Source of the DNA: Halomonas denitrificans
GTDB taxonomy: Bacteria > Pseudomonadota > Gammaproteobacteria > Pseudomonadales > Halomonadaceae
Direction: 5' to 3'
Assembly: GCF_003056305.1 (NCBI RefSeq)
Contig: NZ_PYVX01000004.1
Span: 248,001-312,000, forward strand
Length of the DNA: 64,000 bases
Shown here in pieces: positions 45,919-46,145 of this stretch. The translations under genes were made by a program, and so were the position numbers. The notes beneath the pieces were generated by a model, which was given only the letters and a program-made list of their open reading frames with translations, did no database searches and was not told where the DNA came from. Each line of letters starts with the position of its first letter. Within the stretch, counting starts at the first letter, position 1.

Positions 45919-46083
45919 GACGCGGCTCTCGGTTGTTGGTCTCGTGGCGGACCTGCCGCCGACGCTCAGATTCTAGTCGAGAGCGGGGCGGATCGCCGCG
46001 AGGCCCCTCCCATCCCACGAGCGGTGCCGGGCATCCCGAGGCCATCCTTTAGCCCGCAGGTGGGTCTGTGGTAGGATACCGGC

Positions 46084-46136
46084 GCTCTAGTCGGCGTTGC
46101 GTCTTGGAAACGCCGAAAATCCTTCCAAACTAGAGC
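46084..46136 (+). ncRNA. candidate structured leader (three-helix pseudoknot) of the BCCT gene
   Basis: By hand-pairing: P1 GCTCTAGT (84-91) with ACTAGAGC (129-136), 8 bp; P2 CGGCGTT (92-98) with AACGCCG (109-115), 7 bp; and a pseudoknot P3 TTGGA in the P2 loop (104-108) with TCCAA (124-128), 5 bp (numbers are last two or three digits of 46xxx). The helices abut with no unpaired bases between P1 and P2 or between P3 and P1. A -10-like TAGGAT at 46072-46077 would start the RNA right at P1. No known riboswitch matches from memory. Confidence 0.5.
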
Positions 46137-46145
46137 ATCTCCCCC

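Follow-up and report, generated by a model that had tools for sequence, protein, structure and literature searches.

A conserved leader with two predicted RNA helices before one BCCT transporter gene in Halomonas

Uptake of solutes is a central part of how Halomonas tolerates salt. Among small leader RNAs, the H-type riboswitches of the SAM-II and preQ1 types are defined by a pseudoknot, and ompA is an example of an mRNA stabilized by a structure at its 5' terminus. RppH and RNase E depend on single-stranded 5' ends (PMC3997798). Among leaders of solute transporter genes, the proX motif (SRC-29-1) is a riboswitch candidate found in Spiribacter before a betaine transporter (PMC8632094), and for the opuB motif unpublished genetic and biochemical evidence has been cited in favor of a riboswitch (PMC11109978). 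Here, we analyzed a 53-nucleotide (nt) leader that precedes a BCCT family transporter gene in Halomonas denitrificans, within a stretch of 64,000 nt (contig NZ_PYVX01000004.1 of assembly GCF_003056305.1, positions 248,001 to 312,000; hereafter the window, whose numbering is used throughout). A preliminary description, drawn from the letters of the window, had proposed that this leader is a compact three-helix pseudoknot.

The leader resembles the proX motif (PMC8632094) in being a narrowly distributed leader of salt-water bacteria, in preceding an osmoprotectant-type transporter and in its proposed translational control, but differs from it in that no ribosome-binding site was found, the strand proximal to the start codon lies in the enclosing helix, P1, and the gene belongs to the BCCT family. 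A retained ribosome-binding site occluded by the motif, as in proX, was seen in none of the 27 distinct leaders compared, at a threshold of -4.5 kcal/mol or better, and the strong matches in the genus stand before BCCT rather than before proX (26/26). The proX motif is the closest in kind among known leaders, and the two are set apart by gene and ribosome site. Like the opuB motif, the element is a structured leader before compatible-solute transporter genes; the main text of PMC11109978 mentions neither Halomonas nor BCCT. The similar size and the leader position close to the start codon recall the SAM-II and preQ1 types, from which the element differs in that its pseudoknot is not conserved and no Rfam family matches. 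It also shares with 5'-terminal mRNA stabilizers (PMC3997798) a helix at the very 5' end, given the predicted transcription start, whereas here the letters of the helix are conserved as well and the helix extends to where the ribosome docks.

The preliminary description had been unable to match the leader to a known family, and this was confirmed. Rfam 15 gave no match at the gathering threshold in the whole window, and up to an expect value (E) of 10 the leader was matched only by a microRNA model on the other strand (E 5.8), whose 12.9 bits fall far short of the cut-off of 60. A permissive Rfam search in 12 of the 26 leader loci yielded three weak matches, none of which overlaps the leader. 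In addition, no description of the leader was found in the open-licence literature, subscription papers lying outside the search. We file the leader as a new orphan motif of a known kind, narrowly distributed, and not as a riboswitch.

Two helices kept among relatives, and a pseudoknot that is not

Relatives were collected with a search with the transporter protein, which gave 80 loci whose upstream stretches were then inspected; the leader was seen in 17 of them. Nineteen distinct leaders (alignment A1, which omits L046 and L079 as duplicates of L021 and L005) were used to build a covariance model, R1, and 27 distinct leaders (alignment A2) were used for the tests of structure. In the window, the order is GCTCTAGT-CGGCGTT-loop-AACGCCG-linker-ACTAGAGC; a C-rich stretch of nine bases separates it from the ATG of the BCCT gene. 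The 8-base-pair (bp) helix P1 and the 7-bp helix P2 of the preliminary description are both present in the sequence (Table 1). The predicted minimum-energy fold of the window leader contains P1 and P2, with base 46091 pairing within P2 rather than P1; its energy of -20.5 kcal/mol (z -3.91) was equaled by none of 200 shuffled sequences.

Across the 27 leaders, 94.2% of the 378 cells of P1 and P2 are paired, compared with 30-42% when the partners are slid. For P2, 14 cells have changed on both sides, a value reached in 0 of 500 shuffles, and the number of pairs changed on both sides (Table 1) was reached in 8 of 500. The pair 14-30 alone shows six reconstructed changes from C-G to U-A on a tree of the 27 proteins, in which several forks have low support (0-39%), so that event counts are approximate. 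For P1, eight changes were reconstructed in the first seven pairs, and each of them leaves a standard pair in place (seven new wobbles and one reversal, p 0.004). When the leaders were folded together with the spacer and 60 nt of coding sequence, the probability of P1 exceeded 0.9 in 25/27 and that of P2 exceeded 0.5 in 22/27.

The conservation of letters is unevenly distributed. The 3' arm of P1 has undergone 0.25 changes per column on the tree and the 5' arm 1.25 (2 versus 10 changes), compared with 4.4 in the first part of the linker, 3.0 in its last part, 5.6 in the apical loop and 3.4 at fourfold-degenerate codon sites. P1 is thus the fixed part of the element, and its 3' arm is the most constrained segment of all. 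Conservation of the linker is only modest overall, with a modest consensus A-U-Y-C-U-Y-C-N-C-A at 46119-46128 that contains one invariant C (A 25/27, Y 27/27, C 27/27).

For the third helix, the complementarity noted in the preliminary description does exist in the window, where 46104-46108 (UUGGA) can pair with 46124-46128 (UCCAA) over 5 bp, but relatives do not keep it. The corresponding columns are paired in 23.1% of 134 cells, within the 15.7-32.1% of slid controls, and complementarity of this length arises in 24% of shuffled linkers. The observed values do exceed a letter-dealing control (1/500 for cells paired and 8/500 for covariation); this result was given no weight because, by either measure, higher scores are obtained with three slid versions. 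Only two of the 27 leaders, those of the window and of its nearest relative, L130, have the full 5 bp, the best loop-linker complementarity being 3 and 2 bp in the close orthologs L124 and L136, and 1 bp in L128, L129, L133 and L134. The pseudoknot was rejected both as a fixed helix and as any loop-linker complementarity assessed leader by leader against shuffled linkers, and the retained pairing of apical loop and linker that characterizes an H-type pseudoknot riboswitch was not found. The pseudoknot may still form in the RNA of the window itself, outside the conserved element.

The preliminary description had staked its proposal on covariation and conservation in relatives: these are found for P1 and P2 taken together, and the third helix of its "compact three-helix pseudoknot" is not conserved. 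Its broader claim, that the whole leader of the BCCT gene is made up of one conserved structured RNA, is supported. On this comparison the leader is a conserved structured element with two predicted helices, not three.

Promoter spacing, gene linkage and distribution

In 26 of the 27 leaders, the distance from the end of a TANNNT box to P1 is exactly 6 nt, the next commonest of 39 spacings being found in 8, and the extended TG is likewise present in 26/27. Given this fixed 6-nt gap and standard promoter geometry, transcription should start at the first G of P1, in agreement with the earlier expectation that the leader begins near the transcription start. With a start there, the structure would occupy the 5' untranslated region from its first base, and the 5' nucleotide would be paired, with no single-stranded extension. 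Covarying, retained helices that are tied to one gene and lie in its predicted 5' untranslated region, among the marks of a structured cis-regulatory leader RNA, are found here.

In some relatives, a palindrome, TTTAGACTTAAGTC(T/G)AA, lies over the -35 region (46048-46071 in the window) and is a candidate regulator site. Its left half, TTAG, occurs in 24/27 leaders and its right half, GTC(T/G)AA, in 11/27; a longer form, GACTTATAAGTC, is seen in L128, L129 and L134.

The tie to the gene was assessed on a tree of the BCCT proteins of the 80 loci and the window (81 in all), in which the 18 proteins with a leader fall into a single clade (99% support, one change of state); this tree comes from a quick search with no bootstrap. 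In Halomonas, R1 matched 26/90 genomes at E 6.3e-7 or better, all 26 strong matches precede the BCCT ortholog, and the element is 50-54 nt long among the leaders. A BCCT protein at E 1e-200 or better is encoded in 52/90 Halomonas genomes, which include all 26 leader genomes. For the other 26/52, BCCT homologs 79-85% identical were present and no leader was found; identity alone does not split these 26 homologs from the ortholog clade, and they are off the tree unless among the named loci. By sequence comparison, the leader is conserved in evolution and tied to one particular BCCT transporter.

Outside the genus, R1 was run over 250 genomes of the family and matched 24, namely 21 of the genus (strong), G388, the decayed G101 and G491. 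G388, from another genus, is the one non-Halomonas genome with the leader, and its copy appears to be the same as L048, the Franzmannia pantelleriensis copy; the G491 match sits in coding sequence and was taken as chance. Over 293 genomes of the order, only the window's own genome was matched. In these genome searches no more than 20-65 candidates were scored for each genome, and weak copies may have escaped them. Of 369 genomes of the class, 12, the own genome included, matched a gapped pattern made from the P1 arms. No strong second copy was found in the own genome, the next best R1 match having E 0.83. In the Halomonas search, matches in G090 (E 0.05) and a second one in G059 (E 0.08) were treated as chance, and a second G097 match (E 1.5e-10), which lies at the end of a contig where no gene could be seen, was left uncounted.

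For G101 (L147, L162), the match (E 0.08) is a decayed copy and is not among the 26. Its BCCT gene is internally deleted, about 147 residues being left, and its leader has lost the P2 5' strand and the loop but has kept the linker and P1 with one mismatch. This single case fits P2 being kept only for a working gene. The stretch upstream of the promoter is duplicated in G101.

The ribosome docking region and possible modes of action

The spacer between P1 and the AUG is C-rich and 6-10 nt long in the 27 leaders, and the best duplex that any of them forms with the anti-Shine-Dalgarno sequence reaches -3.3 kcal/mol. Duplexes of -4.5 kcal/mol or better are found in 0/27 leaders versus 21/63 leaderless homologs, the start codons of the latter having been assigned by script. 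The preliminary statements that the leader ends 9 bases before the ATG and that a Shine-Dalgarno sequence is lacking were both borne out. The 3' arm of P1 falls at or just upstream of the usual 30S docking site, and the mean unpaired probability of the region from -13 to -7 is 0.21 or less in 19/27 leaders.

Sequence comparison shows the two helices, their conservation, the tie to one gene, the promoter spacing and the missing Shine-Dalgarno sequence; we infer a regulatory role of the leader and its direction, an action on translation and recognition by a specific factor or ligand. In the proposed mechanism, the mRNA would start at the first G of P1, and P1 would enclose the P2 hairpin and a G-poor single-stranded linker, its 3' arm ending 6-10 nt before the AUG, in or beside the place where the 30S subunit docks. 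Closed P1 would hinder initiation, and a factor or ligand reading the nearly invariant 3' arm would open or remodel P1 and so allow initiation. Among the functions suggested in the preliminary description, translation control fits this anatomy best, and we assign a probability of roughly 0.5 to the leader being a conserved cis-acting RNA by which initiation of translation is controlled for one BCCT transporter.

Several observations weigh against this interpretation. Three of the four changes at the innermost P1 pair break it, so that over the whole helix 9/12 changes are kept (p about 0.07); the outermost counted P2 pair is unpaired in 13/27 leaders; and in the folding described above the probability of P1 is about 0.63 in two of the 27 leaders and that of P2 is 0.5 or below in 5/27. 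Occlusion of the docking region is incomplete in 8/27 leaders (unpaired probability 0.25-0.55), the window giving 0.43 with a longer spacer, and 42/63 leaderless homologs likewise lack a strong anti-Shine-Dalgarno duplex. The analysis revealed no alternative fold, and a permanently closed P1 would mean poor translation of the gene. Finally, the distribution of the leader is narrow.

Translation control has to be weighed against a role of P1 at the 5' end. If transcription starts flush with P1, which is at the predicted +1 in the leaders with the -10 box (26/27), no unpaired 5' nucleotides would be offered to RppH and RNase E, which depend on single-stranded 5' ends (PMC3997798), and the mRNA would live longer. 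Such a stabilizer would not need fixed letters in P1, whereas in the leaders the sequence of P2 varies and that of the P1 3' arm hardly does, and we regard this explanation as rather unlikely.

A riboswitch is about equally doubtful; here the linker and P1 would form a pocket for the transporter's substrate, for a different osmolyte or for K+/Na+, and the bound ligand would lock P1 and so stop translation. The nearly fixed sequence of P1, the one invariant C of the linker, the salty habitats of the hosts and the precedent of the proX candidate before the Spiribacter betaine transporter (PMC8632094) are in its favor. However, the element serves one gene in one clade, the linker changes at 3.0-4.4 per column, near the fourfold-degenerate rate of 3.4, and the apical loop faster still, no conserved tertiary helix and no Rfam match were found, and the BCCT protein has no assigned substrate.

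Less probable again is a new class of very small sensory RNA, of about 52 nt, with two helices, no pseudoknot and a position flush with the mRNA 5' end, that senses an osmolyte or ion directly. If this were true, a strand of P1 would also serve for ribosome docking, the gene having no Shine-Dalgarno sequence, and a halophile would tune solute uptake through the stability of the RNA itself.

The near-fixed arms of P1 adjoin the promoter, and the inverted repeat GCTCTAGT/ACTAGAGC could instead be a DNA operator that binds a regulator just downstream of it; some DNA-binding proteins do use CTAG half-sites. However, 8/8 reconstructed changes in the first seven P1 pairs are of a kind tolerated by RNA pairing (p 0.004), and P2 covaries. 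The length of the element varies between 50 and 54 nt, so that its arms do not stay in a constant helical phase. The own genome contains AACTAGAGC 5 times, including the leader, R1 finds no second strong site there, and a DNA regulon of the P1 arm is unsupported by these 5 occurrences. We consider an operator very improbable. The same applies to a small-RNA target, in which the conserved stretch directly before the AUG, from the linker to the P1 3' arm, would be opened or blocked through pairing with a trans-acting RNA, since a search of 8/8 genomes for its 18-nt complement with at most two mismatches, shorter seeds not having been tried, returned only the leader's own antisense.

The mechanism of the leader is accessible to experiment with small constructs, the element being short, bounded by the predicted start and the start codon and present in many species, Halomonas ventosae among them. 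Nature also supplies a set of leaders that vary in P1 and P2, together with one copy that has decayed.

The transporter, its neighbors and the coordinates of the features

Table 1. Features of the leader, its promoter and the BCCT gene, in window coordinates
Feature	Position	Strand	Basis
-35-like element TTTAGC (putative function)	46048..46053	+	TTAG in 24/27 leaders
Extended -10 element TGG-TAGGAT	46069..46077	+	TANNNT 6 nt before P1 in 26/27
Predicted transcription start, first G of P1	46084	+	Fixed 6-nt gap from the -10 box
P1 5' arm GCUCUAGU (8 bp with 46129-46136)	46084..46091	+	98.1% of P1 cells paired, 27 leaders
P2 5' strand (7 bp with 46109-46115)	46092..46098	+	4 P2 pairs changed on both sides; 88.9% of P2 cells paired
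P2 apical loop, fast-evolving	46099..46108	+	5.6 changes/column; no kept pairing with the linker
P2 3' strand	46109..46115	+	P2 pairing test, 27 leaders
J2/1 linker, single-stranded, G-poor	46116..46128	+	Holds the 3' strand of the claimed pseudoknot
P1 3' arm ACUAGAGC, nearly invariant, near the Shine-Dalgarno position	46129..46136	+	Mean pairwise identity 0.98
C-rich spacer without Shine-Dalgarno sequence	46137..46145	+	6-10 nt among 27 leaders
BCCT family transporter, 531 amino acids	46146..47741	+	Pfam PF02028, E 2.7e-145

The transporter scores below the NCBIfam cut-offs for the betaine, BetT (choline) and CaiT (carnitine) types, the glycine betaine BCCT model NF047988 giving 311.8 bits against a cut-off of 650. 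Among solved structures, the closest in sequence are those of the trimethylamine transporter (8zw8), a BCCT protein (8ybq) and BetP. The aromatic motif of transmembrane segment 8 in the window's protein (P0001) reads FAWFIGYGP versus WAWWIAWSP in the trimethylamine transporter, and the substrate box may differ. In the own genome, a second BCCT paralog (L163, contig C10) is 83% identical, and its upstream stretch has no visible leader.

By eye, no neighbor is common to all of the 11 leader loci inspected, out of 17 named; three different neighbors each recur in about three of the 11. One of the neighbors, which starts MQA(T/S)LEQRALKLS, lies downstream of the BCCT gene in 3/11 loci (L032, L038, L042 and others). 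Several leaderless homologs (for example L065, L086, L088 and L100) follow a gene ending ...MGRNW..., which we take to be an M19 dipeptidase and which may hint at the substrate.
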